Assembly: GCF_015776785.2 (NCBI RefSeq)
Contig: NZ_LFMD02000005.1
Location: 545,465 to 609,464, forward strand
Length of the DNA: 64,000 nucleotides
Direction: 5' to 3'
Source: Kitasatospora sp. SUK 42
GTDB taxonomy: Bacteria; Actinomycetota; Actinomycetes; Streptomycetales; Streptomycetaceae
In this document: positions 37,744 through 64,000 of the stretch, one piece after another
How positions within the stretch are numbered: position 1 is the stretch's first letter
Layout: each line of letters opens with the position of its first letter
The notes under the pieces: generated by a model
What the model was told of the DNA's origin: nothing
Seen by the model: the letters and a program-made list of their open reading frames with translations, nothing else
Database searches by the model: none
Program-made: the position numbers and the translations under genes

Positions 37744-37788
37744 GATCGAAGCCCTTTCATCGGCGTGCATCCCATGACGCGGCCATGC

Positions 37789-37837
37789 TACCTCTTGTCG
37801 AGATACATCGAACCGAGGTATCTCTATTCGAGGCAAG
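37789..37837. promoter_or_regulatory. PadR operator, nested inverted repeats
   Basis: TACCTC (37789-37794) pairs with GAGGTA (37815-37820), and GAGATAC (37800-37806) pairs with GTATCTC (37818-37824). Looser outer arms CTTG/CAAG (37794-37797 / 37834-37837) extend the symmetry. It sits between divergent padR and the MATE gene in an A/T-rich promoter stretch, and contains the ATCGA/TCGAG steps seen in many PadR sites. Confidence 0.7.
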
Positions 37838-37902
37838 CGCCGGGCCGCATCGGCCGAACAAGGCCGAACGAGCCGAACAGGAACGAGGAACAGGGGGGAA
37901 CC

Positions 37903-39252
37903 ATGCGCGGGCACCTGCCCCGCCTGGCCGCATCGGCCGGACCGATCTACGTGGAACTGCTGTCGGGCGTGATCGCCTCGGTGATCGGCACCTTCTGGGT
38001 GGCCGGCCTCGGCGGGGCCGCCGTCGCCGCCGTCACCCTGGCCGGCACCGTCGAGAACCTGCTGCTGGGACTCGTCCTGGTGGTCTCCTCCGGCACCAGC
38101 GTGCGGCTCTCCCGCGCCCTCGGCGCCGGTGACCACGACGACGCCGCCCGGACCACCCGCGCCGCCTGGCGCCTGTGCGCCGTCGGTGCCTCGGCCCTCG
38201 CCGTTCCCGGCTTCCTGCTGCGCGACAGGATCGCGGCCGCCTTCCTCGACGGCGAGGCCGCGACCCGGGCCGGGGAGTACTTCGCCGTCGCCTTCCCGGC
38301 GTTCGCGCTGTTCTTCGCCCAACGCGTCGCCGACGAACTCTTCAAGGGCGCGGGCGACACCCGCACCCCGATGCGGATCGCGCTGCTCGGCAACGCACTG
38401 CTGCTGGTGCTCGATCCCCTGCTCGTCCTCGGCGCCGGCCCGGTGCCGGCCCTCGGCGTGCCGGGTGCGGCCCTCGCCCTGGCGCTCTCCCGGGCGATCG
38501 CCTTCGCCGTCACCCTGCGCCTGCGCTCGCGCCCGCGGTCAGAGCCCAGGCCGCAGCCGCGAGCCGGGGGCGGAGTACGGGGCGTGGGCCCGGCGGCCCT
38601 TCGCATCCTGCGTGCCGGTGCACCCTTCGGGCTGGACTTCACGGCCCGGATGGCCGTCGGCACGGCCCAACTCGCCCTGGTCGCAGGCTTCGGCGTCGGG
38701 GCGGTGGCCGGGTACGGAATCGGCTACCGGCTCCTCCTCGTCGCCACCATGGCCTTCTACGCGCTGCGCCAGGCCGCCGCCATCCGTGCCGCCCGCCTCG
38801 CCGGCGGCGGCGCGACCGCCGCGCTGCGCGACCTCCGCCGAGCCGCCGTCCGTCTGGCCGTCCTGCTCGGCGCCGCGGCGGCCCTGATGTCGGTGGCCCT
38901 CTCCGGTCCGCTCACCGCCCTCTTCACCGACGACCGGTCCGTGGCCGTCCAGTCCGTCGGCTTCCTGCGCGCGGCGGCCCTCTACCTCCCCCCTTACGCC
39001 CTGGTGGTCGTCCTCGGCGGCGTCCACCAGGCGACGGGCGCCGGCCGGGCGCTCGTCCTGTCCGCCCTCCTCGGCCTCGGCGCCCAACTCGCCGCCTCGG
39101 CAGTCCTGTCGGGGGTGCTCGGGGTGACCGGCGTCTGGCTGGGCCAGGCGGTGGGGGCGCTGGTCCAGCTCGGCCTGGTGCTCGTCCTCACCCGTCGCGG
39201 GGCCGTTCCGGTGGCGGGCCGTCGGGCGCGGAGCCTCCATGCCGTCGAGTGA
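37903..39252 (+). CDS. MATE-family multidrug efflux protein
   Basis: 449 aa with about 12 TM helices. Typical marks: VELLSGVIASVIGTFWVAGLG, GLVLVVSSGTSVRLSRALGAGD (N-lobe), VADELFKGAGDTRTPM with PVPALGVPGAALALALSRAI, and in the C-lobe GAPFGLDFTARMAVGTAQ. A Pro/Arg-rich cytosolic linker (residues ~205-225) joins the lobes. It exports cationic compounds using Na+ or H+. ATG at 37903 follows AGGGGGG. PadR-controlled, divergent. Confidence 0.9.
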   Translation: MRGHLPRLAASAGPIYVELLSGVIASVIGTFWVAGLGGAAVAAVTLAGTVENLLLGLVLVVSSGTSVRLSRALGAGDHDDAARTTRAAWRLCAVGASALAVPGFLLRDRIAAAFLDGEAATRAGEYFAVAFPAFALFFAQRVADELFKGAGDTRTPMRIALLGNALLLVLDPLLVLGAGPVPALGVPGAALALALSRAIAFAVTLRLRSRPRSEPRPQPRAGGGVRGVGPAALRILRAGAPFGLDFTARMAVGTAQLALVAGFGVGAVAGYGIGYRLLLVATMAFYALRQAAAIRAARLAGGGATAALRDLRRAAVRLAVLLGAAAALMSVALSGPLTALFTDDRSVAVQSVGFLRAAALYLPPYALVVVLGGVHQATGAGRALVLSALLGLGAQLAASAVLSGVLGVTGVWLGQAVGALVQLGLVLVLTRRGAVPVAGRRARSLHAVE

Positions 39253-41924: not shown

Positions 41925-43274
41925 ATGCCGTACCGCACCTCCGCGCCGGTTCGCGAGCGCGCGCCGTACCTCTTACGCCGCGAACTACAGCACCGGCTCG
42001 ACACCCTCGCGCACACCCACCGGGTACCCGGCGCCCAGCTGGTCCTGGACACCGGGTCAGAGGTCCTCGCGCTGCACACCGGTGTGGCCGACGCCGCCAC
42101 CGGCACCCCGTTCACCGGGGAGACCGCCGTCCCGGTGGGGTCGCTCACCAAGCCCTACACGGCCGCCCTGGTGCTGCTCCTCGCCGACGACGGCGACCTC
42201 GACCCCGACGACCCGATCGCCGACCACCTTCCCGAGCTGCGGGGAATGCCAGAAGTAACGATTCGCCAGCTGCTCAGCCACACCGGGGGACTGCCCACCG
42301 GGCCGGACTCCGACGCGGCCGCCCGCACCACCCCGGCCCGCTACCTGTCCGCCGTGTGCGCCGCCGGGGAGGAACTGTTCCCACCCGGGGCCGACTTCTC
42401 CTACTCCAACGCCGGCTACGTCGCCGCCGGACGCCTGGTGGAGGCCGTGACCGGCATGCCGTGGCACGAGGCCGTGCGCACCCTGCTGCTCGAACCGCTC
42501 GGCACCGTGCCCCAGTTCCTCGACCCGGCCGCACCCGCCCGCCCGGTCGCCGTCGGCCACGCGCTCAACGCCGCCACCGGCCTCGCCCGGCCCGTCCGGC
42601 AGAACCTGGCGCCGCTGGAGGCGCCGGCCGGAGCCCTGCTGGCCAGCGCCCTGGACCTCGCCGCGCTCGGCAGCGCCCTGACCGGCCGGCACAAGGCCCT
42701 GCCCGCCGCCGTCGCCGAGGAGCTGCGCCGCCCGCAGCCCGGCGCCCGGCCCGGGGCGCTCGCGGACGGCTGGGGGCCGGGCGCGGCCCTCTACCGGCAG
42801 GACGACCGGCTCTGGTGCGGCCACGACGGCAACGCCATGGGCACCTCCTGCCACCTGAGGGCCGAACCGGACAGCGGCGTGGTCGTCGCCTTCACCGGCA
42901 ACTCCGGCACCGCCACCGCGCTCTGGCACGAGCTCGCCGCCGAGCTGGCCGAGCTGGCCGACGTACGGGTGCCCGCCGCGATCGCGCCGTTCGGCTCGGG
43001 CGAGCACGTCGACCTGCCCGGGTGCACGGGCACCTACGTCAACGGCGGGATCCGCTACCGGATCGAGCCGGGCCGGGACGGATCGCCCACGCTCTCCGTG
43101 GACGGCGACCTCCCGATCCCGCTGCGCTGTTCCGCCGACCTCTCGTACGACCTGGTCGCCCCGGACACCGGCCGCCCCGAGCCAGGCGGGCGCTTCCACC
43201 GGGATCCCGCCACCGGCGTGATCGACCGGGTGCAGGTGTCCGGGCGCACGGCCCGCCGCGCCGACCCCGCCTGA
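41925..43274 (+). CDS. Penicillin-binding-protein-type thioesterase (trans-acting peptide cyclase)
   Basis: 449 aa beta-lactamase/PBP4*-fold protein. Serine-hydrolase motifs: SxxK as Ser73-Leu-Thr-Lys76 in [10 protein letters not shown], YxN as Tyr160-Ser-Asn162 in FSYSNAGY, and HxGx as His300-Asp-Gly-Asn in [10 protein letters not shown]-terminal ~95-residue beta domain ([18 protein letters not shown]) is lipocalin-like. Length, architecture and position next to an NRPS match SurE-type enzymes that release and cyclise peptides of the surugamide, desotamide and mannopeptimycin kind. No signal peptide, so it works in the cytosol and not on cell wall. Codon 17 is TTA (41973-41975). GGGAG precedes the ATG. 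A D-aminopeptidase or resistance esterase is the main alternative. Confidence 0.8.
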
Positions 43275-43441
43275 GCGGCCCACCGCAGGCCCCGCCGACG
43301 CGGCCCACCCCGCAGGCCCCGCCCGAGCGGCTCACCCCGCCGGCCCGTACCGCGGCCACCGCCGCCACACCCGTCCCCACGGAGCTCCCGCCCGCCCCCG
43401 GTGCGCGCGTCGCCCCCTCCCGTCCGGAAGGACCTCCCGCC
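43275..43441. repeat. Degenerate direct repeats between thioesterase and NRPS genes
   Basis: From about 43275 to 43345 a ~27-bp unit (CGGCCCACCCCGCAGGCCCCGCCCGAG-like) recurs roughly 2.5 times. The NRPS ribosome site GAAGGA lies further on, before 43442. No terminator seen, so the two genes are probably co-transcribed. Confidence 0.6.
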
Positions 43442-46400
43442 ATGGCCGACTGGCCTGCCCAGCCCGTGCGTACGCCCGTTCCGCCGCAGGCCGGCGACGC
43501 CCCCGGCGCACCGGGGAACGACGCGGCCCCGGCGCACCGGACGCTCGACGCGCTGTTCGCCGCCCGGGCGGCCGACACGCCGGACGCGCCCGCGCTGACC
43601 GACGGTCGGCGCACCTGGACCTACCGGGAACTCGCCGACCGGGTCGAGCGCCTGGCCCGCGACCTCGGCCACCGGGGCGCCGGGCCGGACCGGACGGTGG
43701 CGCTGGTCCTGCCGCGCTCGATGGAGCTGGTCGCGGCGGAGCTGGCCGTCGTACGGACCGGCGCCGCCTTCCTGCCCGTGGACCCGGGCTACCCGGCCGA
43801 GCGGCGGGCGCTGATGCTCGCCGACGCCGCCCCCGCGGTGGTCCTGGACGACCCGGCCGCGGTCCGCGCGGCACTGGAGTCGGAGGCCGGCGCCGCCGAT
43901 GCCGAAGACCCGCCCCGCCCGACCGGCACCGACCACCCCGCGTACGTGATCTACACCTCGGGCTCCACCGGCACGCCCAAGGGCGTGGTCGTCACCCACC
44001 GGGGGATCGCCGGGTTCGCCGAGGCCGCCGCCGAGCACTACGCCGTACGCCCCGGCGACCGGGTGCTCCAGTTCTCCTCGCCCAGCTTCGACGCCTCCGT
44101 CCTCGAACTTCTCAGCTCCGTCCTGGCCGGCGCCACGCTGGTGATCCCCCCGAACGGTCCGTGGCTGGGCGAGGAACTCGCCGCCGTGCTCGACGAGCAC
44201 CGGATCACCCACGCCCTCATCCCACCCGCGGCGCTGGCCACCGTGCCCGCCGGCGCGGGCCGCCACCTGCGCACCCTGATCGTCGGGGCCGAGGCCTGCC
44301 CCGCCGCACTGGTCGACCGCTGGGCGCCCGGCCGACGCATGATCAACTCCTACGGCCCGACCGAGGCCACCATCGTCGCCACCTGGACCGGGCCGCTCAC
44401 CGCCGGCACCGGCACGCCCACCATCGGCGGCGCGCTGCCGCACACCCGGGCGTACGTGCTGGACGCGGCCATGCGACCCCAGCCGCCGGGCACCGACGGC
44501 GAGTTGTACGTCGGCGGGGAGGGCGTGGCCCGCGGCTACCTCGGCCGCCCCGGCCTGACCGCCGCGCGCTTCGTCGCCGACCCCTTCGGCCCGCCCGGCT
44601 CCCGGCTCTACCGCACCGGCGACCGCGCCCGGTGGACCGCCGACGGGGAGCTGGAGTTCCTCGGTCGGCTCGACCGGCAGGTGAAGCTCCGCGGCTTCCG
44701 CATCGAGCCGGGGGAGATCGAGGCCGCGCTGCTGGCGCACCCCGCCGTCGACCAGGCCGTCGTCGTGGTCCGGGAGGACGAACCCGGCCGGGAGCGCCTG
44801 GTCGGCTACGTCACGCCCGCCGAACCGGACGACGCCCCGGACCCCGCGGAGCTGCGCACGGCCCTGGCCGCCGCCCTGCCGGCCCACCTGGTGCCCGCCG
44901 CCGTCGTCGTCCTGGCCGCGCTGCCGCTCACCCCGCAGCACAAGATCGACCAGAGGGCACTGCCCGCACCCGCGCACCCGGCCACCACGGCCGGACACCT
45001 CGAACCGCGCACCGAGGACGAACGCACCCTGGCCGCCGTCTGGGCCGAGGTGCTCGGCGTCGACGCCGTCGGGGCGACCGACGACTTCTTCGACCTGGGC
45101 GGCGACTCGATCCTCGCCGCCCGCACCCTGGCCCGGGTCGCCGAGCGCCTGGGCGCACGGCTCACCCTCCGGGACGTCTTCACCGCGCGCACCGTCGCCG
45201 CCCTCGCCCCGCTGCTCGGCGAACGGCAGACCGCCGCCCCACCGGAGCCGATCCCGCTCGCCCCGCGCACCGGGCCGCTGCCGCTGTCCAGCGCCCAACG
45301 GCGGCTGTGGTTCCTCGACGACCTCAGCGCCGGCGGCACCGAGTACAACACCGGCGTCGCCCTGCGGCTGCACGGACCGCTCGACCCCGAGGCCCTGCGC
45401 CGGGCCCTGCGCCGGCTCGCCGCCCGCCACGACTCGCTGCGCACCACCGTCACCAGCGTCGACGGGCACCTCGTGCAGCGCGTCGCCGAGGAGCCCGTCC
45501 TGCCGCTGCGCACCGCGGACCTCGGCGAACTGCCCGCCGGCGAGCGCGCCGAGACGGCCGAGCGGCTGCTCACCGAGGAGCTGGGCCGCCGCTACGACCT
45601 GACGGACGGCCCGCTCACCCGGGCGCTGCTGATCCGGCTCACCGCCGAGGAGCACCTGCTGCTGCTCGGACAGCACCACATCGTCACCGACGGCTGGTCG
45701 GTGGGCGTCCTCACCCGCGAACTGTCCGCGCTCTACCGGGCGGAGGCCTCCGGCGAACCGCACGGGCTGCCCGCCCCCGCCCTGCAGTACCCCGACTTCG
45801 CGCACTGGGAACAGCGACGGCCGGACGCCGGGGACGCCCGCGACCTCGCGTACTGGAAGCGCTGCCTGGCGGACCTGCAACCCCTGCAACTGCCCACCGA
45901 CCGGCCCCGCCCCGCCCAGCGCACCGTGAACGGCGCCGCCCACCGCCACCACCTCCCGGCGGAGCTGGTGGTCCGGCTGCGGCACCTCGCGGCGGGCCGC
46001 GGCACCACCGCGTTCACCCTGTTCGCCGGGGCGTCCGCGCTGCTGTTCTCGCGCTACTCCGGCCAGCGGGACGTGGCCTTCGGCACCGTGACGAACGGAC
46101 GCGACCGCCGGGAGCTGGAGGAGGTGACCGGCTTCTTCGTCAACACCGTCGTGCTGCGCGGCGAGGTGGACGAACGGGCCACCGTCGACCGGTTCGTGGA
46201 GGGCGTGCGCACCACCCTGCTGGACGCCTTCGCCCACGCGGGGGTGCCCTTCGACCGGGTGGTCGAGGAACTCGCCCCGCCCCGGGACCCGAGCCGGACC
46301 CCGCTGGTCCAGGTCCTGGTCGTCCAGCAGACCCCCACCACACCGCCGCCCGCCGGAGGGCTGCGCTTCGAGGACCACCCGCTGCCGCGCCCGGCCGCCC

Positions 46401-49400
46401 GCTTCGACCTGGTGCTGGAGTTCACCCCGGAGGACACCGGCGGCTGCGCGCTGACGGTGGAGTACAACACCGACCTGTTCGACGCGCGGACGGTCGCCCG
46501 GATGGCGCGTCACCTGCACCGCCTGCTGGTCGGCATGGCGGACGGACCGCAGCGCACCCTCGCCGAACTGCCGATGCTCTCCGCCGAGGAGCAGCGCACC
46601 CTGCTCGACTCCTGGAACCCGCCCGCCGACGACGGACGGGACCTCCCGGACACCGTGCTGCCCGTGCTGTTCGAGGCGCGGGCGGCCGCCGGCCCCGAGC
46701 GGACCGCCGTGCTCTGCGGCCCGGACCGGCTGGACTACGCGGAGCTGAACCGGAGCGCCAACCGGCTGGCCCGGCTGCTGATCGCACGCGGCGCGGGCCC
46801 CGAGCGGCTGGTCGCGCTCTGCCTGCCGCGCACCGCCGAACTGCCCGCGGCGCTGTGGGCGGTGCTGAAGTCGGGCGCGGCGTACCTGCCGGTGGACCCG
46901 GGGTACCCGGCCGAGCGGATCCGCTTCATGCTGGCCGACGCCGAGCCCGCGCTGGTCCTCGCCACCCGGGAGACCGCCGCCGCCCTGCCCGAGGGGTGCC
47001 CGGTGCTGTTGCTGGAGGACTGCGGTGCCCACCTGCCCGACAGCGATCCGACCGACGCCGACCGGCTCGGCCCGCTGCTGCCGGAGCACCCCGCCTACGT
47101 CATCTACACCTCCGGATCGACCGGCCGGCCCAAGGGCGTCGTGGTCACCCACCGCAGCGTCGTCGCCCTCGCCCGGTGGGCGGCGGAGCGCTTCGGGCCC
47201 GACGGGCTGGACCACGTGCTCGCCGCCACCTCGCTCAACTTCGACGTGTCGGTCTTCGAACTGCTCTGCCCGCTGCTGGCGGGCGGAAGCGTCGAGCTGG
47301 TCGCCGACCTCCCCGCGCTCGCCGAACTCCCGGCCCCCGCCGAGGAGTCGGCCCCGCGACGCGTCGGGCTGCTCAGCGGCGTGCCCTCGGTGATCTCCCG
47401 GCTGATCGCCGGCGGCACCGTCCCGGTCGCCCCGGACACCGTCGTGCTGGCCGGCGAGGCCCTCTCCGCCCAGGCGGTGCGCGACCTCCGGCAGGCCCTG
47501 CCCGGCAGTGCCATCGCCAACATCTACGGCCCCACCGAGGCCACCGTGTACGCCACCGCCTGGCACGCCGACGGCCGGGCGCCGGAGCAGGCGCCGCCGA
47601 TCGGCCGACCGCTGGCACTCACCAGGGCCTACGTCCTCGACTACGCGCTGCGCCCGCAACCCCCGGGCGTGGTCGGTGAGTTGTACCTCGGGGGCGGCGG
47701 CCTGGCACGCGGCTACCTCGGCCGCCCCGGGCTGACCTCGGCCCGGTTCGTGGCCGACCCGTACGGCGTGCCGGGGGAGCGGATGTACCGCACCGGGGAC
47801 CTGGTGCGGTGGAACGCCGACGGGGAGCTGGAGTACCTCGGGCGGATCGACCAGCAGGTCAAGGTCCGCGGCTTCCGGATCGAACTCGGCGAGGTGGAGG
47901 AGGCGCTGCGGCGCTGCGAGGGCGTCGCGGAGGCGGCCGCCGCCGTCATCGAGGGCGACGGCGGCCGGCGTCTGGTCGGCTACGTGGTGCCCGCCCCGGA
48001 CGCCCGGGTGGAGCCCGAGGCCGTGCGCCGCGCGCTCGGGCTGTCCCTGCCCGACTACCTCGTCCCCTCGGTCGTCGTGCCGCTGCCCGCCCTGCCGCTC
48101 AACCCCAACGGCAAACTCGACCGGAGCCGGCTCCCCGACCCGGGGCCGGCCGTGCGGGCCGTCCGCCACGTCGACCCCCGCACCCCCACCGAACGGGAGC
48201 TGGCCGCCATCTGGGCGGAGGTCCTGCGGCTGGAACGGGTCGGCGCGGACGACAACTTCTTCGACCTGGGCGGGGACTCCATCCTCGGCATCCAGGTGGT
48301 GGCCCGGTCCCGGCAGGCGGGCCTGCCGGTGACCTCCCGGGACCTCTACCGGCACCAGACGGTCGCCGCGCTGGCCCGGTGCGCGGACGACGCCGAACGG
48401 CCCGCCGCGCCCGCCCGGGTGCCCGCCACCGGATCCGGCGTGCTGACGCCGATCCAGCGCTGGTGGTTCGACCGGGCCGCCGGCCGCGCCGGCCACTTCA
48501 ACCAGGCGCTCTCGCTGCTGCTGCCCGGCGACGTGGACCCGGCGGCGCTGGAGGACGCCCTCAACGACCTGATCGCCCACCACGACGCCCTGCGCTCGGC
48601 CTTCGCCGAGGGCGGGGACGGCGGCGCCGGCGGCGACGGGGCCGCCGGGGTGCGGTGGCGGATCGAGGACCGGACGCCCCGCCTCCGCCTGGCCCGGCAC
48701 ACCGGCCCCGAGGACGACACCCCCCACTTCGGCCCCTTCGACCTGAGCGCCGGGCCGCTGCTGCGCGCGGTGCTGCACCAGCGCGGCGGGGAACTGCCGC
48801 CGGTGCTGCACCTGGCCGTCCACCACCTGGTGGTCGACGGGGTCTCCTGGCGGGTGCTGCTGGAGGACCTCGACACCGCCTACCGCGCCCGCCGCGAGGG
48901 CCGGGACGGGGCGGGCGCGCTGCCGGCGAAGTCCTCGCCGCTGCGGCAGTGGGCCCAGCGCCTCGGTGCGTACGCGGCCGGGGGCGGCTTCGAGGACGAG
49001 GCGGAGTACTGGGCGCGGGCTCTCCCCGATCGGGCCGAGGCCGAGGGGCCCGCCGCCGAGCCGTTCCCGGCCGACCTCGCGGGCGCCGACGGCTACGCCT
49101 CGGCCCGCGCCGTGACCGTCCGGCTCGGCCCCGCCGACACCGCCGCCCTGCTGCGCACCCTGCCCGACACCTACCGCACCCAGGCCAACGACGTGCTGCT
49201 GAGCGCCCTCGGCCGGGCCCTGTGCGCGGCGAGCGGGCAGCGGCGGGTCGTGGTGGACGTCGAGGGGCACGGGCGGGAGGAGCTCTTCGCCGACCTCGAC
49301 CTGAGCCGTACGGTCGGCTGGTTCACCACCCGGCACCCCGTCGCGCTGGAGGTCCCCGCCCAGGGCGACTGGGACGGCGTGCTCAAGCTGGTCAAGGAGC

Positions 49401-52400
49401 AGCTGCGCGCCGTCCCCCGGCGCGGCCTCGGCTTCGACGCCCTGCGCCACCTCGGCCGCCCCGGGACGGCGCCCGCCGCCCCGGCCGCGCGGATCAGCTT
49501 CAACTACCTCGGCAGGATGGCCCTCCCGGACGACCCGGACGGCCTCTACCGGGGCACCTTCCGCAGCCTGGAACTGGACGCCGACCCGCGCGCCGAGCGC
49601 CCGCACGCCCTGGAGGTGGTCGGCCAACTCAACGGCGAGTCACTGGAGTTCACCTGGTTCTACGCCGAGACGGTGCACCGGCGCGACACCGTCGAGGCGC
49701 TGGCCCGGCGGTTCGCCGAGGAGCTGGCCGACCTCGCGCGCCACGCGGTGCGCCCGGGCGCCGCCGGGCGCACCCCGTCCGACTTCCCGCTGGCCCGGCT
49801 CGACCAGGCCGCCGTGGACCGGATCACCGGCGACGACCCGGCCGCGGTGGAGGACGTCCTCCCGCTCACGCCGACCCAGTCCGGCATGCTCTTCCACGGC
49901 CTCGCCGAGGAGGACAGCGGCGCCTACTTCCAGCAGCTGGACTTCGTCCTGGACGGCGTGCCCGACCCCGGGCGGCTGGCCGCCGCCTGGCAGTGGGTGA
50001 CCGACCGCACCGCGGTGCTGCGCGCCGACGTCCGCTGGCAGGACGTGCCCGAGCCGCTGCTGGTGGTGCGGCGCCGGGCCGCCGTGCCGGTCACCCACCT
50101 GGACTGGCGCGAGGTGCCCGAGCCCGAGCGGCGGGACCGGCTCGCCGAGCTGCTGGACCGCGACCGGGCCCGCGGCCTCGACCTGGGCCGGGCCCCGCTC
50201 CAGCGCCTGCTGCTGATCCGGCTCTCCGACGACCGGGTGCGGGTGCTGTGGTCCTTCCACCACCTGGTCCTGGACGGCTGGAGCCTCTTCCAGGTGCTGT
50301 CGGACGTCTTCGCCGCGCACGCCGCTCTGGCCAGTTCCGGGCTGAACGGCGATGTCCAGGACGGCGATGCCGAGGACGGCGACGCCCCGTACGGAGACGT
50401 CCCGTACGGCACCGTGCCGGAGCGCCGCCCCTACCGCGACTACGTCGCCTGGCTGGGCGAGCGCGACCCGGCCGAGGCGGAGCGGCACTGGCGGGGCCGC
50501 CTGGCCGGACTGTCCGAGGCCACGCCGCTGCCCTACGACCGCGAGCCGCGCCAGAGCCACCGCGCGGAGTCCACCCGGGCCGTGCCCTTCACGCTGCCCG
50601 CCGCCGCGACCCGGGCCCTGGAGGAGCTCGCCCGCACCTCCGGGCTCACCCTGAACACCCTGGTCCAGGGTGCGTGGGCGATCCTGCTGGCCCGTCAGGC
50701 GGGCCGCGATGAGGTGGTGTTCGGTGCCACCTCCTCCGGGCGGCCGCCCGAGCTGCCCGGGGTCGAGACCATGACCGGCCTGTTCATCACCACCCTGCCC
50801 ACCCGCACGACGGTGCCCGCCGACGGCACCCTGCTCGACTGGCTGCGCGCGCTGCAACGCGAGCAGAGCGAGGACCGCCGCCACGGCCACCTCCCGCTCC
50901 CCAGGCTGCGGGCCGCCACCGAACTGCCCGAGCGCACCGCCCTGTTCGACAGCATCGTGGTCTTCGAGAACTACCCGGTCGACGCCGACGCGGCCGCCGC
51001 CCACGGCCTGCGGCTGCGCGACCTGGACGGGATCGAGACCACCAACTACCCGCTCGCCCTGCTCGCCCAGCCCGGCCCGGAGCTGGCCCTGCGGCTCTGC
51101 TACGACCCGCGGCTGTTCGACGCCCGCACCGTCCGGCGGCTGGCCGGGCAGCTCACCGCCGCGCTCACGGCCATGCCCGAGGGGGCGGGGCGCCCGCCCG
51201 CGCGCCTGCCGCTGCTGACCGCCGAGGAGCGCCGGCGGATCCTCGTCGACTGGAACGACACCGCCGTCGGCCGGCCCGGGCGCACCGTCGCCGAGCTCTT
51301 CGCCGAGCAGGTGCGCCGCACCCCCGGGGCCGTCGCCCTGGAGGCCGGCGGCGAGCGCCTCGACTACCGCGAACTCGACGCCCGCGCCGCCGCGTTGGCC
51401 GGGCGGCTGGCCGCGCTCGGGGTCCGGCCCGAGCGTCCGGTCGGCGTGCTGATGAATCGTTCCGTCGCCCTGGTCGTCGCCCAGCTGGCCCTGGTCCGCA
51501 CCGGCGGGGTCCACGTGCCGCTGGACGGCCGGGCGCCGCGCGAACGGCTGCGCCGGATGCTGGCCGAGGCCGGCGCCGAGCTGCTGCTCACCGACGCCGA
51601 ATGGGAGGAGTCGGCGCGCGAACTGCTGCCCGCCGACCGGGTGTTGAACCTGAGCGATCCGGGCCCTGACGAGCCCGCGCCCACCGCCACCCCCGAGGTC
51701 CACCCCGACAACGTCCAGTACCTGATGTTCACCTCGGGCTCCACCGGCACCCCCAAGGGCGTCGCCGTGCGCCAGCGCGACGTCGCCGCCCTCGCGCTGG
51801 ACCGGGCCTTCGCCGGCCACGACCGGGTCCTGGTGCACTCCCCGCACGCCTTCGACGCCTCCACCTACGAGCTGTGGGTGCCGCTGCTGCGCGGCGGCAC
51901 CGCCGTGCTGGCCCCGCCCGGGGACCTGGACGCCGCCGCCGTCCGCCACGCCGTCACCGAGCGGGGCGTGCGCTGCCTGTGGCTGACCGCCGGCCTGTTC
52001 CGGCTGCTCGCCCAGGAGGACCCGGGCTGCCTGCGCGGCGCCCGGGAGGTGTGGACCGGCGGCGAGGCGGTGCCGGGCGCGGTCGTGCGGCGCGTCCTGG
52101 AGGCCTGCCCCGACCTCACCGTGGTCGACGGCTACGGCCCCACCGAGACCACCACCTTCGCCACCCGCCGGGCCTTCCGCGCCGGCGACCCGCTGCCCGC
52201 CACCCTGCCGATCGGGCGCCCCCTGGACGACACCCGGGCGTATGTGCTGGACGGCGCGCTCCAGCCGCAACCCCCGGGCATCACGGGGGAGTTGTACATC
52301 GCTGGCGCCGGGGTGGCCCGGGGCTACGCGGGCCGGCCCGGCGCGACCGCCGCCCGCTACCTCGCCGATCCCTACGGCCCGCCCGGGGCCCGGATGTACC

Positions 52401-55400
52401 GCACCGGCGACACCGTCCGGTGGAGCGAGGACGGCGAACTGCACTTCGTGGGCCGGGCGGACGACCAGATCAAGCTCCGCGGCTTCCGCCTCGAACCCGC
52501 CGAGATCGAGGCCCGGCTCACCGCCCACCCGGCCGTCGCCGAGGCCGTCGTCTCGCTGCGCGAGGACGCGGGCCGCAGGCGGCTGGTCGCCCACCTGGTG
52601 CCCGCCGGGGGAGCCGAACCGCCCTCCGCCGCCGAACTGCGCGCCCACCTGGCGGCCGAACTGCCCGACTACATGGTGCCCGCCGCCTTCGTCGCCCTGC
52701 CCGCACTGCCGCTGACGGCCAACGGCAAGGTGGACCGCCGACGCCTGCCCGCACCCGACCCGGCGGCGGCCGGCGACCGCGCCCACCGCGCCCCGGGCAC
52801 CGACGCCGAACGCACCCTCGCCGCGATCTGGGCGGAGCTGCTCGGGGTGGCCGAGGTCGGCGTCGACGACGACTTCTTCCTGCTCGGCGGCGACTCGATC
52901 CTCAGCATCCAGGTCGTCTCCCGCGCCCGGGCCGCGGGCCTCGCACTCTCCCCCCGTGACCTGTTCCGGAACCCCACCGTCGCCGCGCTGGCCGCCAACG
53001 CCGGCACCGCCACCACCATCGCGGGCACCGAACCGGTCGAGGGCGAGGTCGCCCTGACGCCCGTCCAGCACTGGTTCCTCGACCCGCACCCGCCGTACGC
53101 CGGGTACTTCAACCAGTCCCTGGTGGTGGAGTCGCCGGGCGAGGTCGACCCGCGGGCCCTGCGCCGCGCCCTGACCGCCCTGTGGACCCACCACGACGCC
53201 CTGCGCACCACCTTCAGCACCGGGCCGGACGGCACCTGGCGGCAGTACTGCGCCCCCGCCGACGCCCCCGCCCCCGAGCTGCTGGAGGTCCGCGAGCCGG
53301 GCACCGAGGAGCAGGCCCAGGCCGCGTTCCGGCTGGACACCGGCCCGCTGCTCACCGCCCGCCTGCTGCCGGCCGACGCCACCCGCCCCGCCCGGCTGCT
53401 GCTGGACGTCCACCACCTGGTGGTCGACGGCGTCTCCTGGCGGGTGCTGCTGGAGGACCTGGAGACCGCCTACCGGCAGGCCGTGGAGGGCCGGCCGCTG
53501 CGCCTGCCCGCCCGCACCAGCTCCCTGCGGGAGTGGACCCGCCGGCTGAGCGTGCACACCGCGGCCGGAGGCTTCGCGGACCAGCGCGCCCACTGGGCGC
53601 AGGTCGCCCGGCACAGCGCGGCCCCCCTGCCGGTGGACGGCGACGGCGGCAACACCGCCGCCGACCTGCGCGCGGTGACCGTCCGGCTGGACCGCGAGCG
53701 CACCGACGCCCTGCTGCGCCAGGTCCCCGGGGTCTACCGCACCAGGATCGACGACGTGCTGCTCACCGCCCTGGGCCGGGTGCTCGCCGAGTGGACCGGG
53801 CGGCGCACCGTCGCGATCGGCCTGGAGGGCCACGGCCGCGAGGACCGGCTGTTCGACGGCGTCGACCTCTCCCGCACGGTCGGCTGGTTCACCTCGCTCT
53901 TCCCCGTCGCCCTCGACGTCCCGGACGTTTCCGACGGCGACTGGGGCACCGCGCTGAAGTCCGTCAAGGAACAGCTGCGGGCTGTGCCCGACCGCGGCCT
54001 CGGGTACGGCGCGCTGCGCCACCTCGCCCGGGACGAGCGGTTCGCCGCCGCCCCGGAGCCCGGCATCAGCTTCAACTACCTGGGCCGGTTCGACTGGTCG
54101 GACGACGCCGCCGCCCTGGTCCGCGCCGTCCTCGGCGGCCTCGGCGGCGCGGAGGCGCCCGGCACCGAGCGCCCGTACCTGCTGGACGTGATCGCCCGCG
54201 TGGAGGACGGCAGGCTGGAGATCGGCTGGTACTACAGCAGCGGACTGCACCGCGAACCGACCGTCACCGCCCTCGCGGACGCCATGCTGCGCGCGCTGGA
54301 GGAGATCGTCGCCCACTGCGCCGAGCCCGGCGCCGGCGGCCGCACCCCCGCCGACTTCCCGCTCGCCCGCCTCGACCAGGCGGCGGTGGACCGGATCGCC
54401 GGGGACGGCCGCTCCGTCGAGGACGTGTACCCGCTGACGCCGATGCAGGCGGGCATGCTCTTCCACAGCCTGCTGGACCCGGACGGCGGCACCTACGTCA
54501 ACCAGGTCCAGCTCGTGCTGACCGGCGTCACCGACCCGCACGCCCTGGCCGAGGCCTGGCAGCAGACCGTGGACGCCAACCCGGCGCTGCGCACCCGGCT
54601 CAGCTGGCAGGACACCGCCGAGCCGGTGCAGGTCGTCCAGCGGCGGGCCGCCGTGCCGGTCGCCCACCACGACTGGACGGGCCGGCCCGCCGAGCGGATC
54701 GAGCGGGACACCGCCCGGCTGCTCGCCGAGGACCGCGAGGCGGGCCTGGACCTGGGCGCCGCGCCGCTGATGCGGCTGTCCCTGGTCCGGCTGTCGCCCA
54801 CCCGGGTGCGGATGGTGTGGACGTTCCACCACGTCCTGCTGGACGGGTGGAGCGCGGCCCAGGTCTTCGACGAGGTGTGCGAGCGCTACGCCGCCCTGAC
54901 CGCCGGGCGCCGCCCCGAGCCGGCCGAGCGCGCACCCTTCGGCGCGTACCTGCGCTGGCTGTCCGAACAGGACCAGGCGCGGGCCGAACGGTACTGGCGC
55001 ACGGCCCTGGCCGGATTCCCCGCCCCCACCGAACTGCCCCGGGACCGCCGCCCCGCCGGGGCCCACAACGACTCCTCCTCGGCGAAGGTGCGGGTGACCC
55101 TCGGCGGCGAGCTGTCGGAGCGGCTGCGCGACACCGCCCGGCAGGCCGGGCTGACCGTCAACACCGTGCTGCAGGGCGCCTGGGCGCTGCTGCTCTCCCG
55201 CTACGGCGGCGGCGAGGACGTGCTGTTCGGCACGATCGTCTCCGGCCGGCCCGCCGAACTCCCGGGCGTCACCTCGATGGTGGGGCTGTTCATCAACGCC
55301 CTGCCCACCCGGGTGCGGATCGACGCCCGGCGCCCGCTGCGGGAGTGGCTGCGGGAGCTCCAGGACGCCCAGTCGGAGGCCCGCCGGTACGACGCCGTCT

Positions 55401-58400
55401 CCCTCGCGCAGCTCCAGGGATGGAGCGAACTTCCGGGCGGGACGGGCCTGTTCGACAGCATCGTGGTCTTCGAGAACTACCCGTTCGACGCGCGGTCGCT
55501 GACCAGGCACGGCCTGGGCGTGGAGACCGAACGCGTCCTGGAGCCCACCAACTACCCGCTCAGCGTGGTGGTGGCCCCCGGCGAGGCCATCGAGGTCGAC
55601 CTCGACTACGACCCGGCCGCCTTCGACCCCGCGACCGTCGAAGGCCTCGGGGCGAGCCTGCGCACCCTGCTCGCGGGGCTGGCGGGCGGCCTCGACCGGG
55701 CGGCGGCCGAGCTGCCGCTGCTGGACCCGGCCGGGGCGCGCGAACTCGTCGAACGGTTCGGCGGCGCGGCGCTCGACGCCCCACGGCGCACCCTGCCCGA
55801 GGCCTTCGCCCGGCAGGCCGCCCGCACGCCCGACGCCCCGGCCGTCCGCTCCGGCGACGTCCAGCTGACCTACCGGGAGCTCGACGAGCGCTCCAACCGG
55901 CTGGCCCGGCTGCTGATCGAGTCGGGCGCCGGCCCCGAGCGCTTCGTCGCGCTCGCGCTGCCCCGCACCGCCGACCTGGTCGTGGCCCTGCTGGCGGTGC
56001 TCAAGAGCGGCGCCGGCTACCTGCCGGTGGACCCGGGGTACCCGGCCGAGCGGATCGCGTTCCTGTTCGACGACGTGCGGCCGGACGCCGTGGTCACCGA
56101 CACCGGGACGGCAGGGCGGCTGCCGCAGGGCCCGTACGCCCGGATCCTGCTCGACGACCCGGCCTGCGCCGCCCGGCTCGCGGCCGCCCGCAGCGACGGC
56201 GTGGCCGAGCGGGAACGATCCGGCGCCCTGCTGCCCGAGCACCCCGCCTACGTCATCCACACCTCCGGCTCCACCGGCCGCCCCAAGGGCGTCGTGGTCG
56301 CCCACGCCTCGGTGCTCGCGCTGACCGACTGGGCCGCCGAGGAGTTCACCGGCCGGGGCCTCGCCCACGTGGTGGCCGCCACCTCGCTCAACTTCGACGT
56401 GTCGGTGTTCGAGCTCTTCGCGCCCCTGCTGTCCGGCGGCCTCGTCGAACTCGTCCGGGACCTGCTGGCCCTGGCCGAACGCCCCGGGCCGTGGCGGGCC
56501 GGACTGCTCAGCGCCGTCCCCTCCGCCCTCGGCGGACTGCTCGCCGACGGCGCCGTGCGAGTCGACGCGGACACCGTCGTCCTGGCCGGTGAGGGGCTGC
56601 CCGCCCGCACCGTGCGCCAGGTGCGGGAGGCCGTTCCCGGCTGCCGGGTGATGAACATCTACGGCCCCACCGAGGCCACCGTCTACGCCACCGCCTTCAC
56701 CTGCGAGCCCGCCGAGCCCGCCGACCCCGCCGACCCCGACCGGGACCCGCCGATCGGCCGCCCCGTCGGCGGCGCCCGCGCCTACGTCCTGGACGAGCGG
56801 CTGCGCCCGGTGCCCGTCGGCGCGCCGGGGGAGCTGTACCTGGCCGGCACCGGCGTGGCACGTGGCTACCTGCGCCGCCCCGGGCTGACCGCCGCCCGCT
56901 TCCTGCCCGACCCCTTCGGCCCGGCCGGGCGCCGGATGTACCGCACCGGCGACCGGGTGCGCTGGACGGCCGACGGCGACCTCGTCTACCTCGGCCGCGC
57001 CGACGACCAGGTCAAGGTGCGCGGCTTCCGGATCGAACTCGGCGAGGTCGAGGCCGCATTGGCCCGCCACCCGCAGGTGGCGGCCGCCGCCGCCCGGGTG
57101 GTGGACCACGACGGCCACCGGCGCCTGGTCGGCTACGCGGTGCCCCGCGCGGGCGGGCTGCCGGAGGCCGCCGAGTGGCGCGACTTCCTCGGCCGCACGC
57201 TCCCCGACCACCTGGTGCCCGCGCTGGTGGTGCCGCTGGAGCGGCTGCCGCTCGGCGCCACCGGCAAACTCGACCGGCGCGCCCTGCCCGAACCGTCCTG
57301 GACCACCCAGGCCACCACCGTTGCCCGCCGGCCCCGTACCGAGGCGGAACGCACCCTTGCCGCGATCTGGCGCGAGGTCCTCGGCGTGCCCGAAGTCGGC
57401 GCGGACGACAACTACTTCGCGCTCGGCGGCGACTCGATCCTCGGCATCCGGATCGTCTCGGCGGCCCGCCGGGCCGGGCTCGCGCTCACCCCCCGGCACC
57501 TGTTCGCCCACCAGACGCTGGCCGAACTCGCCCTCGCCGCCCAGGAGTCACCCCGCCCGGCCGTCCTCGCCGAACAGGGCGCCGTGGTCGGCGAGGCCCC
57601 GCTCACCCCCGTCCAGCACTGGCTGCTGGACACCCTCGACGGAGACCCCGCCCGCTTCACCCAGTCCGTCTCCTTCCGCCTCGCCCCCGACACCGACCCG
57701 GCCCTGCTGCGCGCCGCACTGGCCGCCGTCCTGGACCGGCACGACGCGCTGCGGCTGCGCTTCCGGCCCCTCGCCGACGGCCGGTGGCGCCAGTACGGCA
57801 CCCCGCCCGGCGAGGCGCCCGACCTGCGGACGTACGACCTGCCCGCCGCCGCACCGCGGTTGGAGGAGGTGGCGCGCGAGCTGGCCGAGGGCTTCGACCT
57901 GGCCGACGGGCCGCTGCTGCGGGCCGCGCTCTGCCGCGTCGAGGGCGAAGCCCACCCCGTCCTGCTGCTGGCCGCGCACCACCTGGTGGTGGACGCGGTG
58001 TCCTGGCGGATCATCCTGGAGGACCTCGAAGGCGCCCACCGCGCCCTGCGCGCCGGAGAGCGGCCCGACCTGGGCCCCAAGAGCACCTCCTTCCGGGCCT
58101 GGGCGGAACGGCTCGCCGCCCACACCGCGGCCGGCGGCTTCGACGGGGAACACGCCCACTGGCTGGACCAGGGCCGCGAGGCCGCGACCGCCCTGCCGAC
58201 CGACCGCGACGGCGCCAACACCGCCGCCGTCGAGGAGTCGCTGACCCTCGGCCTGGACGCCGAGTCCACCCGGCGGCTGCTCCAGGACGTCCCCGAGACC
58301 TACCGCACCCGCGTCAACGACGTCCTGCTCTGCGCCCTGGGCCGGGTCCTGGCCCGCTGGACCGGACGGGACCGGGTGGCCGTCGCCCTGGAGGGCCACG

Positions 58401-61400
58401 GCCGTGAGGAACTGTTCGACGACGTCGACCTGAGCCGCACCGTCGGCTGGTTCACCGCCCTGCACCCCGTCGCCCTCGACGTCCCCCGGGGCGCCGACAC
58501 CGGCACCGTCCTCAAGGCCGTCAAGGAGAACCTGCGCGCCGTCCCGCACGGCGGCCTCGGCCACGGCGCGCTGCGCCACCTCACGCCCGCCCCCGACCCC
58601 CGGCTGCCGGAGCCGCCGCAACTCGCCTTCAACTACCTGGGCCGGCAGGACTGGACCGCCACCCCCGGCGGCCTGCTGCACTCCCCGTACGGCCCGCTCG
58701 CCGGCGGCATGGACCGGACGGCCCGGCGGCCGCACCTGCTGGACGTGCTCGGGCGGGTGAGCGAGGGCCGGCTGGACTTCACCTGGTCCTACTCCCGCGA
58801 GGTGCACCACCGCGAGACGATCGCCCGGCTGGCCGCCGAACTGCTCGACGAACTGCGGGAGATCGTCCGCCACTGCGCCGAACCCGGCGCGGGCGGCCGC
58901 ACCCCCTCCGACTTCCCGCTCGCCCCCCTCGACCAGGCCGCCGTCGACCGGCTGGCCGGCACCGGACGGGACGTCACGGACATCCAGCCGCTCACCCCCA
59001 CCCAGACCGGCATGGTGGTGCACGGCCTCGACGAGGCGGAACACGGCCTGTACGTCGAGCGGATCACCTTCGTCCTGGACGGCGCCCGCGACCCCCGGCT
59101 GCTCGCCGCCGCCTGGCAGCACGTCATCGACCGCACCCCCGTGCTGCGCACCGCCGTCGCCCTGCACGACGTGCCCGTACCCCTCCAGGTGGTCCACCGG
59201 CAGGCGCCGCTGCCGGTCACCGACCACGACTGGAGCGACCTGGCCGAGGCCGAGCGCGAAGCCCGGCTGGAACGGCTGCTCGCCGAACGGCGGGCCCGCC
59301 CGCTCGCCCTGGACCGGGCCCCGCTGCTGCGCCTCGACCTGATCCGGCTCGGGCCGGACGCGGTACGGGTGGTGTGGACGTTCCACCACGTGCTGCTGGA
59401 CGGCTGGAGCGTCTTCCACGTCCTGTCCGACGTCCTGGCCGCCCACGCCGCGCTCGCCCGCGGCGAACAGCCCGGCCTGCCCGAGCGCCGGCCCTTCGCG
59501 GACTACGTCGGCTGGCTCGCCGCCCGCGACACCGCCCCCGCCGAGGCGCACTGGCGCGGCGTCCTGGCCGACCTCGCCACGCCCACCGCGATGCCCTACG
59601 ACCGCAGGCCCGCCCCCGGCGCCACCGCCCGCTCCGACTCCTGGCTCTCGCACCGGCTGGACGAGGCCGCGACCGACCGGCTCCAGGAGTTCGCCCGCCG
59701 CCACCGCCTCACCCTCAACACCCTGGTGCAGGGCGCCTGGGCGCTGCTGCTGTCGCGCTGGAGCGGGGAGCGGCGGGTCTGCTTCGGCACCACCGTCTCC
59801 GGGCGGCCCACCGACCTGGCCGGCTCCGACGACATCGTCGGCCTGTTCATCACCACCCTGCCCGCCCGCGTCACCGTCGACGGCGCCCAGCCCTGCGCGG
59901 CCTGGCTGCGCGCACTCCAGGAGGACCGGGCCGAGGACCGCCGCTTCGACCACCTGCCGCTCGCCGGGATGCACGGGCTGAGCGCACTGCCGCCCGGCAC
60001 GGCGCTCTTCGACAGCCTGGTGGTCTTCGAGAACTACCCGGTCGGCGACGCCACGGCCGGCGCGCACGGCCTGCTGATCCGCGAACTGGACGCCAGGGAG
60101 GCCACCAACTACCCGCTCACCGTGGTGGTCTCGCCCGGCGAGCGGCTCGCCGTCGAACTCGGCCACGACCCCCGGTACGTCGACCGGGCCACCGCCGAAC
60201 AGCTCGCCGCCCACCTGCTGCACACCCTGACCGCGCTGGCCGGCTCGGACGGCACCACCCGCCTGGACGACCTCGACCCGCTGCCGCCCGCGGAGTACGA
60301 GCGGCTGCTGCGCCCGCCCGCGCGCCCGGCGCTCGGCCCGGTGCCTCCGGAGGCCCTGCCCGCCCTGGTCGAGGCCGCCGTGGACCGGTGGTCGCAGGCC
60401 CCCGCGCTGAGCGCCCCCGGCCTGGAGCTGTCCTTCGCCGAGGTGGAGGCGCACGCCAACCGGCTGGCCCATCGGCTCATCGCACGCGGCGCGGGGCCGG
60501 GCGAGGTCGTCGCCCTCCTGCTGCCGCGCTCGGCGGACATGGTGCTCGCCCAGCTCGCGGTGGCGAAGACCGGCGCCGCGTTCCTGCCCGTCGACCCCCA
60601 CTACCCCGAGGCGCGGATCGAGCTGATGCTGCGTGACGCCGCGCCCGCGCTGACCCTGGACGCCAAGGAGACCGCCGCGCTGCTGGCCGCCCCACCGGAC
60701 GGCGCCCCCGGCCACCGCCCCACCGACCGCGACCGGACCCGCCCGCTCGACCTGGACGACCCCGCCTACGTCATCTACACCTCCGGCTCCACCGGCACCC
60801 CGAAGGGCGTGGTGCTCACCCACCGCGGGCTCGCGGCCTTCGCCGCCGCCGAGGCCGACCACTACCGGGTGGCGCCGGGGGACCGGGTGCTGGCCTTCGC
60901 CACCCCCAGCTTCGACGCCTCCGTCCTGGAACTGTGCATGTCCCTGCCGCACGGCGCCCGACTGGTGGTGCCCGCCCCCGGACCGCTGCTCGGCGCCCCG
61001 CTGGCCGAGGTCCTGCGGGCGGAGCGGATCACCCACACCCTGCTCCCGCCGGCCGCCCTCGCCACCCTGCCCGCCGACACCCCCGGCACCCTGCCCGCGC
61101 TCAGGACCCTGGTGGTCGGCGCCGAGGCGTGCGGCCCCGACCTCGTCGCCCGCTGGGCCCCGCACCACCGCATGGTCAACTCCTACGGCCCCACCGAGGC
61201 CACCGTCGTCGCCACCTGGTCCGCCCCGCTGGCCCCCGACGGCGCCGCGCCGCCGATCGGCCGCCCCCGGCCCGGCACCGGCGCCTACGTGCTCGACGTC
61301 CGGCTGCGCCCGGTGCCCGAGGGCGTCCCCGGCGAACTGTGGCTGAGCGGACCGGCCCTGGCCCGCGGCTACCTCGGCCGCCCCGGACTGACCGCCGCCC

Positions 61401-62164
61401 GCTTCACCGCCGACCCGTACGGCCCGCCCGGCACCCGGATGTACCGCACCGGCGACCTGGTGCGCCGCGACCGCCGGGGCGAACTGCACTACCTGGGCCG
61501 CACCGACCACCAGCTCAAACTGCGCGGCCACCGGATCGAGGCGGGCGAGGTCGAGGCCGTCCTGGCCCGCCACCCCGCCGTGCTGGACGCCGTGGTGAGC
61601 GTGCGGGAGGACGAACCCGGGCTGCCCCGCCTGGTCGCCCACCTGCTGGCCGCCCCCGGCACCGAACCGCCGACCGGCGCCGAACTGCGCGCGCTGGCCG
61701 CCCGCTCGCTGCCCGGACACATGGTCCCCTCGGCCTTCGCCGTCCTCGACCGCTTCCCGCTCACCGAGAGCGGCAAGACCGACCGCGCCGCGCTGCCCGC
61801 CCCCGAACCGGCCGAGGAGGAGCCCGCCGAACGGGTCGCCCCCCGCACGCCCACCGAGGAGGCCGTCGCGGAGATCTGGACCGAGACCCTGCGGACGGCC
61901 GTGGGCGTCACCGACGACTTCTTCCAGCTGGGCGGCGACTCGATGCGGGCCCTGCTGATCGCCTCCCGCGCCAACGATGCCTTCGGCGTCACGCTCACCC
62001 CCCGCGACGTCCTGGTCTCCCGCACCGTGGCCGCCCTGGCGGACCTGGTCGAGGAGCAGGTGCTGAGCGAACTCGAAGCCGCCGCCGGTGGCCTCGACGA
62101 AGCGGCCTTCGACGGCCCCGACGAAGCCGCCGCCTCCGACGGCCCCCACGATGACGAACGGTGA
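43442..62164 (+). CDS. Five-module nonribosomal peptide synthetase, 6,240 aa
   Basis: Domain order with approximate residues: A1 (35-540), T1 (Ser ~556); C2 LCL-type (610-1050), A2 (1060-1580), T2 (~1613), E2 (1665-2110); C3 DCL-type (2138-2590), A3 (2600-3120), T3 (~3152), E3 (3200-3630); C4 DCL (3660-4090), A4 (4110-4630), T4 (~4665), E4 (4715-5150); C5 DCL (5179-5610), A5 (5630-6140), T5 (~6168). All C and E domains keep HHxxxD; E4 has HHLVVDAVS instead of DG. All T domains have GGDS and all A domains the TSGSTG loop and C-terminal Lys. There is no starter C domain, so A1 starts the peptide. The acidic C-terminal tail is a likely docking donor. Predicted chirality L-D-D-D-L. ATG at 43442 with GAAGGA. 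Confidence 0.93.
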
Positions 62165-62177
62165 GGATCCGACGACC

Positions 62178-64000
62178 ATGACGCCTTCGAAGCGAGACCG
62201 CGCCGCCGCCCTGCCCGCCGACCTGCGCGAAGCGCTGCGGCTCCGGCTCGCCGGACGCTCCGGCGGTGCCGAGGCCGCCGCCGAGCGGGCCATCCCGCGC
62301 GCCGACCGCGGCCGACCGCTGCCGCCCTCCTTCGTCCAGCAGCGCCTGTGGTTCCTGGACCGGCTGCGGCCCGGCGATCCGCGCTACAACAGCGCGATCG
62401 CCGTCCGCCTCACCGGGCCGCTGGACCGCACCGCGCTCGCCGGGGCGCTGGCCGCCGTCGTGGCACGGCACGAGGGGCTGCGCACCGTGTTCGAGGAGGC
62501 CGACGGCCGGCCGGTGCAGACCGTCCGGCCCGCCGGGCCGGTGCCGCTGCCGCTGAAGGAGCCCGCCGACACGCGGGCGCTCGACGCGCAGGCCCTCGAC
62601 GCGATCCTGCTCCAGGAGTACTCCCGCCCCTTCGACCTCCGCGAGGGGCCGCTGCTGCGCGCCCTGCTGGTGCGCGAGTCGGACACCGCGCACGTCCTCC
62701 AGCTGACCGCGCACCACATCGTCACCGACGGCTGGTCGATGGGCGTCGTCCTGGACGAGCTGTGCACCGCCTACGACGCCCTCGCCCGGGGCGCCGAACC
62801 GGAGCTGCCCGAGGTGGCCGCCCAGTACCCGGACTTCGCCGTGTGGCAGCGCGAGCAGCTCTCCGGGGATCGCCTGGAGAGGCAACTCGGCCACTGGAAG
62901 GAGAAGTTGACCGGGGCGGTGGCGCCGGAGCTCCCGCTGGACCACCCGCGGCGCGGCGAGGAGGCCGGCCCCGGAGCCGTCCACACCTTCACCGTCCCCG
63001 CGCCGCTCACCGCCCGGCTGCGCGAACTCGCCACCGAACGGCACGGCACCCTGCACACCGCCCTGGTCGCCGCCACCCAGGCGCTGCTGGCCCGCTGGTC
63101 CGGCCGGCAGGACGTCACCGTCGGCTCCCTGACGCCCGGGCGCACCCGCACCGAGCTGGAACGCGCCGTCGGCTGCTTCGTCAACACCGTGGTCCTGCGC
63201 ACCCGGGTGGAGCCCTCCGACTCCTTCCGCGCCCTGCTGGCAGCCGCCACCGAGACGGGCAACGACGCGCTCGCCCACGGCGACACGCCCTTCGAGCGGA
63301 TCGTCGAGGCGGCTGGCGCGCCCCGCGAGGCGGGCCGAAACCCGCTGTTCGACGTCCTCGTCCTGCTGCACCCCGCGCCCCCCGAGGCCCGGGCCCCGCA
63401 CGGGCTCGCGCTCTCCCCGGTCGCCGTGCCCCGGCAGGCCGCCACCTTCGACCTCAGCGTGGAGTTCGTCCCCGACGGCGAGGCGCTCACCGGCCTGCTG
63501 GAGTACCGCGCCGACCTCTTCGACGCGCCCACCGCGCAGCGGATGGCCGAGCAGCTGCTGCGACTGCTGGAGGGCGCCGCCGCCGAACCGGACCGCCCGC
63601 TCGGCACCCTGCCGCTGCTCTCGGAGCGGGAGACCCGGCAGGTGACCTCGGACTGGAACGCCACCGCGCTGCCCGTCGAGGAGACCACCTACCCCGAGCT
63701 GTTCCGGCGCCGCGCCGCCCTCACCCCGCACGCCCCGGCCCTGCTCGCCGGGGACGAGCAGCTGGACTACGCGGCCCTCGACGCCCGCGCCGACCGGCTC
63801 GCCCACCACCTCGCCGCCCTCGGCGCCGGCCCCGAACGGCTGGTCGCGCTGCGGCTGCCGCGCACCGCCGACCTGGTCGCGGCGATCCTCGCCGTCTGGA
63901 AGACGGGCGCCGGATACCTGCCGCTGGACCCGGCACTGCCGGACGAACGCGTCCGGTACCTGCTGGAGGACGCCCGCCCGGCCCTCGTCCTGGACGAGGA
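62178..64000 (+). CDS. Second NRPS, C-A start, cut by window edge
   Basis: At least 607 aa are visible. A ~50-residue charged N-terminus (PSKRDRAAALPADLREALRL) could be a docking acceptor. A C domain of LCL type follows (LPPSFVQQRLWFLDRLRPGD, then [14 protein letters not shown]), and an A domain begins at about residue 500 (YPELFRRRAALTPHAPALLA). The LCL type agrees with the preceding module having no E domain, so module 6 accepts an L-residue from T5. ATG 13 bases after the first NRPS stop, with a GAGGA ribosome site. The amino acid specificity and the release mode lie beyond the window. Confidence 0.9.
   Translation, partial: MTPSKRDRAAALPADLREALRLRLAGRSGGAEAAAERAIPRADRGRPLPPSFVQQRLWFLDRLRPGDPRYNSAIAVRLTGPLDRTALAGALAAVVARHEGLRTVFEEADGRPVQTVRPAGPVPLPLKEPADTRALDAQALDAILLQEYSRPFDLREGPLLRALLVRESDTAHVLQLTAHHIVTDGWSMGVVLDELCTAYDALARGAEPELPEVAAQYPDFAVWQREQLSGDRLERQLGHWKEKLTGAVAPELPLDHPRRGEEAGPGAVHTFTVPAPLTARLRELATERHGTLHTALVAATQALLARWSGRQDVTVGSLTPGRTRTELERAVGCFVNTVVLRTRVEPSDSFRALLAAATETGNDALAHGDTPFERIVEAAGAPREAGRNPLFDVLVLLHPAPPEARAPHGLALSPVAVPRQAATFDLSVEFVPDGEALTGLLEYRADLFDAPTAQRMAEQLLRLLEGAAAEPDRPLGTLPLLSERETRQVTSDWNATALPVEETTYPELFRRRAALTPHAPALLAGDEQLDYAALDARADRLAHHLAALGAGPERLVALRLPRTADLVAAILAVWKTGAGYLPLDPALPDERVRYLLEDARPALVLDE

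Follow-up and report, generated by a model that had tools for sequence, protein, structure and literature searches.

A ten-module NRPS with a SurE/Ulm16-type stand-alone cyclase: a predicted cyclic decapeptide, and recurrent loss of one of two same-code A domains among relatives

What might be made by an NRPS that begins without a C domain, and how would its product be released? We considered this question for a window of 64,000 nt (NZ_LFMD02000005.1, 545,465-609,464), the whole stretch of DNA that was analysed, and we also read the sequence beyond its end. We propose that the locus encodes a decapeptide line whose product would be cyclised by a PBP-type enzyme, and that in relatives which have lost A2 or A4 the other of the two serves both modules; to this proposal as a whole we give a probability of roughly 0.85. 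The features, in window numbering, are as follows.

41925..43274, + strand: putative stand-alone PBP-type thioesterase/peptide cyclase (SurE/Ulm16-like), 449 aa, with S73-x-x-K76, Y160-S-N and H300-D-G
43442..62164, + strand: NRPS1, modules 1-5, A1-P1 / C2-A2-P2-E2 / C3-A3-P3-E3 / C4-A4-P4-E4 / C5-A5-P5
43538..44980, + strand: A1, code DALLIGSIV, tentatively hydrophobic/aromatic
45260..46546, + strand: C2, LCL-type, clusters with C6, C8 and C10
46658..48151, + strand: A2, code DVFSVAIVY, decayed or deleted in 5/65 orthologous clusters
48158..49732, + strand: P2 and E2
49829..54307, + strand: module 3, C3 (DCL)-A3 (DAYWWGGTF, Val)-P3-E3
54392..55690, + strand: C4, DCL-type
55787..57298, + strand: A4, code DVFSVAIVY as in A2, cleanly deleted in 5/65 orthologous clusters
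57311..58864, + strand: P4 and E4
58949..62032, + strand: module 5, C5 (DCL)-A5 (DALLVGSVV)-P5
62178..64000, + strand: part of NRPS2 inside the window (C6 and the first part of A6)
62178-82073, + strand: whole NRPS2 (L009/L010), C6A6P6E6 / C7A7P7 / C8A8P8E8 / C9A9P9 / C10A10P10E10
82101-82322: MbtH gene, 3' of NRPS2
82420-82932: GNAT gene, after MbtH

As read from its domains, the full line is one of ten modules, carried on two proteins of five modules each. Searched with models derived from the window's own domains, NRPS1 showed no C domain in module 1, in agreement with the five-module NRPS and C-less first module described in the earlier note. That note had also predicted that the line would end in an E domain without a cis-TE, and this was borne out when we read past position 64000: the same kind of search over the full NRPS2 found an E domain at the C-terminus and no TE domain. 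The start of NRPS1, at about 43442, was placed at the start codon favoured by a purine-rich stretch upstream. Beyond the MbtH gene lie two GNAT acetyltransferase genes (82420-83560; L010:4884-6024), the first of which stands beside the cluster in five of the eight congeners compared and is the only flanking gene conserved in most of them; MbtH was left unscored in this comparison, being too short for the gene caller. No dedicated transporter conserved with the cluster was found among the eight congeners. Upstream, window positions 35026-39252 hold a PEP-mutase/isocitrate-lyase-family gene, a SAM methyltransferase and a MatE/MurJ-like transporter, which are not conserved beside the cluster in relatives. 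Rfam gave no match in the window.

The order of L and D residues can be read from two sets of domains. The nine C domains form two blocks, C2/C6/C8/C10 (LCL) and C3/C4/C5/C7/C9 (DCL), with identities of about 50% within blocks and about 30% between them, and E domains are present in modules 2, 3, 4, 6, 8 and 10. Because the LCL/DCL split matches exactly what the E positions demand, we deduced the self-consistent configuration L-D-D-D-L-D-L-D-L-D, in which an L N-terminus meets a D C-terminus. The L-first chirality put forward earlier is thus upheld, and D-last now follows from the same domain logic.

The A codes are DALLIGSIV, DVFSVAIVY, DAYWWGGTF, DVFSVAIVY and DALLVGSVV for A1-A5, and DTEDMGYVD, DFWNVGMVH, DTENLGVVD, DAFWWGGTF and DALLVGSVV for A6-A10. 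A full-text literature search for these codes returned a sole match, DAYWWGGTF (Val); PMC9113097 assigns Val to this code and Thr to DFWNVGMVH. Residues 3 and 9 are predicted to be Val and residue 7 Thr, with residues 2 and 4 predicted to be the same as each other. Since DALLxGSxV resembles the aromatic code D-A-L-V-M-G-A-V (PMC7565604), aromatic or other hydrophobic residues are probable at positions 1, 5 and 10, and the acidic residues in the pockets of A6 and A8 point to basic residues at positions 6 and 8. Piperazate was considered for residues 2 and 4 and not assigned: DVFSVAIVY starts in the same way as piperazate-type codes such as DVFSVAAYA and DVFSVASYA (PMC9866976), the only codes that its first letters matched, but differs from them at the last two or three positions, and no piperazate-pathway gene was present among the flanking genes scanned.

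How widespread is such a line? A scan of named genomes and another of the family revealed orthologous clusters in Streptomyces, Kitasatospora-like strains, Streptantibioticus, Streptacidiphilus and Catenulispora, and a close relative of the cyclase in 42 of the 395 family genomes sampled. We annotated 65 clusters, namely that of the window and 64 orthologous ones. All of them share the cyclase and both NRPSs, unlike most of the other flanking genes compared. The A codes are nearly invariant across the set. In the open literature searched, including that on the strain group, we found no named product and no named decapeptide for this cluster, and to that extent the earlier suggestion that the peptide may be new stands. 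The cluster family itself is common and probably lies already within published networks of SurE-linked NRPSs; one such network, of lines with 4-10 modules (PMC7459860), may include it. That the cluster is an uncharacterised member of the cyclic peptide kind made with PBP-type TEs is well supported. In some Streptomyces orthologues (L070, L073, L075, L076, L080, L081, L083 and L089), the match to the A1 model breaks off close to the C-terminus of the model, which points to an insertion. The genus of the window's strain also has other PBP-TE/NRPS clusters with different codes (G036:C1:4130443, G044:C390:33212, G051:C1:1341615, G047:C629:33781, G032:C3:108767 and G019:C2:450753); that of G036 is a six-module line, and one such family is common to G044, G051 and G047.

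Comparison of the 65 clusters revealed a pattern of loss confined to two domains. Ten clusters are without exactly one of A2 and A4, by deletion or decay, and none has lost both. No other A domain was found to be lost in the 26 clusters covered over all ten modules or in modules 1-7 of the others, draft-assembly breaks aside. A2 persists as a remnant of 86 aa in G038, 176 in G059, 196 in G080 (Catenulispora) and 100 in G167, and no A domain is recognisable at this position in G068. A4 is cleanly gone from G050, G060, G061, G066 and G155, where a linker of about 50-60 residues remains. Streptomyces sp. CB02056 is one of the strains without A2, and S. tateyamensis ATCC 21389 one of those without A4. 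Parsimony on a tree built from modules 3 and 5 requires eight losses, five of A2 and three of A4, and strongly supported branches force four and two of these, respectively. Under blind loss, the chance that all six forced events would strike two of the ten A domains is about 6e-5, in a test made post hoc. All the losses lie within one clade, in an inner group of which (n = 13) both copies are kept only by the window's strain and three others. The NRPS of the window retains all ten A domains, with intact motifs in A2 and A4. These two are old duplicates with the same code, in separate ancient clades at about 60% identity, a finding that rules out gene conversion as the process keeping them alike. 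Every A4 checked in the loss clade (55787-57298 and orthologues) has His where Tyr is usual in its A3 motif, [11 protein letters not shown], while the motif in A2 is still [11 protein letters not shown].

How, then, are the modules without an A domain charged? The C, PCP and E active-site motifs checked in these modules are all intact, and their dN/dS is similar to that of other modules; these modules therefore seem to be in use. Because A2 and A4 have the same code and only one of the two is ever lost, one A domain probably charges modules 2 and 4, and in relatives without A2 or A4 the retained partner most likely charges both PCP2 and PCP4. These relatives fit the trans-iterative pattern, having an A-less module with intact C and PCP and a same-code A domain elsewhere (10/65 clusters). 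The A-less genomes contain no relocated A2 or A4; what comes closest in them, at about 60%, is the partner that was kept or an A domain from a large NRPS of many modules. The regions read around the clusters showed no stand-alone trans A or A-T protein, and convergence between PCP2 and PCP4 in the loss clade was not found. An alternative is that the line passes over the A-less modules and makes nonapeptides, or that some other A domain charges them, such as A3 or that of an unlinked NRPS, and some genomes, for example G155, do hold unlinked A domains at about 60% identity. We consider this unlikely, because the losses have hit only two same-code domains and never both, because a skipped module would have no need to keep its C, PCP and E motifs and its dN/dS, and because trans-iterative A domains have been shown in capreomycin biosynthesis (PMC12400406).

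We speculate, at even odds, that the non-adjacent, same-specificity domains A2 and A4 became interchangeable in one clade, so that whichever survives charges both carriers, and that the window represents the still-redundant form. The window's NRPS has no A-less module, and sharing or interchangeability in its own enzyme is a prediction: loss of A2 alone or of A4 alone would not abolish the product, and loss of both would. In an octamodular sister PBP-TE NRPS (L117:11301-21221 with L171, in G107, and L118, in Actinosynnema), whose cyclase is about 45% identical, module 2 is A-less, the next module has the related code DVFSVAAVY, and three modules have basic codes.

The remaining step is release. 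The serine hydrolase noted earlier directly upstream of the NRPS carries the SLTK (S73-K76), YSN (160-162) and HDGN (300-303) motifs claimed for it, and 20 relatives all have S73, K76, Y160, S161, N162, H300, D301 and G302 unchanged. In a PDB sequence search, SurE (6KSU, E 3e-61) and Ulm16 (8FEK, E 1e-49) aligned with it over the full length; the next matches, at 1e-23 or weaker, were an esterase, DD-peptidases (1e-21) and D-amidases (1e-16), and the other matches listed end at about residue 331 or before, short of the lipocalin-like C-terminal part. An AF2 model (mean pLDDT 79) has a PBP-fold domain and a lipocalin-like C-terminal domain, with eight strands beyond residue 368, and SurE (1.8e-34) and then Ulm16 (2e-28) were its best folds over the whole length, the fold alignment with SurE giving about 36% identity. 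In a tree the enzyme groups with SurE, Ulm16 and NRPS-linked relatives, apart from the R61 DD-peptidase, with moderate support (65/97) at the node uniting all PBP-TEs. NCBIfam gave only sub-threshold beta-lactamase matches for it. The family assignment proposed in the earlier note, SurE-type and not D-aminopeptidase, has thus held in both search and phylogeny, and the enzyme is confirmed as a putative SurE/Ulm16-type stand-alone cyclase.

PBP-type TEs connect an L N-terminus with a D C-terminus (PMC11735501). By this route, the ten modules would yield a linear L-D-D-D-L-D-L-D-L-D decapeptidyl thioester, the chain would pass from the last carrier domain to Ser73 of the PBP-type thioesterase, and the amine of L-residue 1 would attack the acyl ester of D-residue 10 to give a head-to-tail cyclic decapeptide. 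The sequence itself shows the architecture, the terminal E, the lack of a cis-TE, the family of the cyclase and a self-consistent stereochemistry; cyclisation, ring size and the identities of the residues are what we infer. The characterised products of PBP-type TEs are mostly of 5-8 residues, which counts against a ten-residue ring. It is also conceivable that the enzyme mainly hydrolyses the chain to a linear decapeptide. Surugamide F is made by ten modules, the last ending in E, together with SurE, and was obtained as a linear decapeptide; in one study SurE yielded cyclosurugamide F, in another mostly linear product (PMC7459860). We regard the linear outcome as improbable here, given the full-length similarity of the enzyme to two in vitro cyclases and the L-first and D-last termini that PBP-type TEs require.

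Two further alternatives seem barely credible. For an ordinary D-amidase or DD-peptidase-like role of the hydrolase, with no part in release, speaks its membership of the same Pfam family (PF00144) and fold superfamily; this reading is opposed by SurE and Ulm16 heading both the sequence and the fold searches, by the adjacency of its gene to the NRPS in all clusters examined, and by an assembly line with no other release domain. That the missing A2 and A4 domains are assembly artefacts of repetitive NRPS genes could be argued from their being paralogous repeats and from the draft state of several genomes, but a repeat collapse would also take out the region between A2 and A4, and the deletions are in frame, occur in assemblies of 1-4 contigs (G059, G155, G167, G061, G060 and G050), are common to diverged species (G050/G060/G066), and are accompanied in some clusters by diverged A remnants.

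A probably cyclic decapeptide, for which the literature searched gave no named product, makes the cluster well worth isolation work; if the predicted cyclisation holds, it would also supply a cyclase for rings of ten residues. What specialists would find new is the natural loss series in the relatives. Repeated, reciprocal loss of A2 and A4 amounts to a natural experiment on the reach of A domains and their sharing between modules, which is an engineering question, and natural strains with and without each copy make A-domain sharing between distant modules directly testable.

Among known systems, that of surugamide (SurABCD with SurE) likewise has a stand-alone PBP-type cyclase, a terminal E, no cis-TE, and L-first and D-last termini, and surugamide F has ten residues, as predicted here. 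Surugamides A-E are octapeptides, and surugamide F/cyclosurugamide F is a decapeptide. Unlike that system, the present one has different A codes, no inferred beta-amino acid module and a single peptide line per cluster. Ulleungmycin (Ulm16), desotamide/wollamide, pentaminomycin (PenA), cyclofaulknamycin (FlkO) and mannopeptimycin (MppK) share the PBP-type TE design and the L-first and D-last termini; their products have about 5-6 residues, in contrast to the ten modules here. The desotamide family members listed in PMC7459860, with characterised structures, are hexa- and octapeptides and the linear decapeptide surugamide F; the present line has ten modules with different A codes, and its product is a predicted one.

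With regard to the A-less modules, one A domain has been shown experimentally to charge another module in capreomycin biosynthesis (PMC12400406), and in mannopeptimycin, itself a PBP-TE system, one A domain has been described as serving two T domains (PMC8949500). Capreomycin, viomycin and mannopeptimycin thus resemble what we propose for the relatives, in that a single A domain loads the carrier of a different module, which has no A domain. In capreomycin, CmnA-A1 charges CmnI, and viomycin is likewise trans-iterative. Ramoplanin, enduracidin, rotihibin and WS9326A are also like what we propose for the relatives in having an A-less module charged from outside, in their case by a stand-alone trans A or A-T protein. 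Unlike the capreomycin type, the pair in the relatives belongs to a single protein, in modules 2 and 4, which are separated by module 3, and the lost copy is A2 or A4 according to lineage, with intermediates in decay and with both copies kept in forms such as the window.
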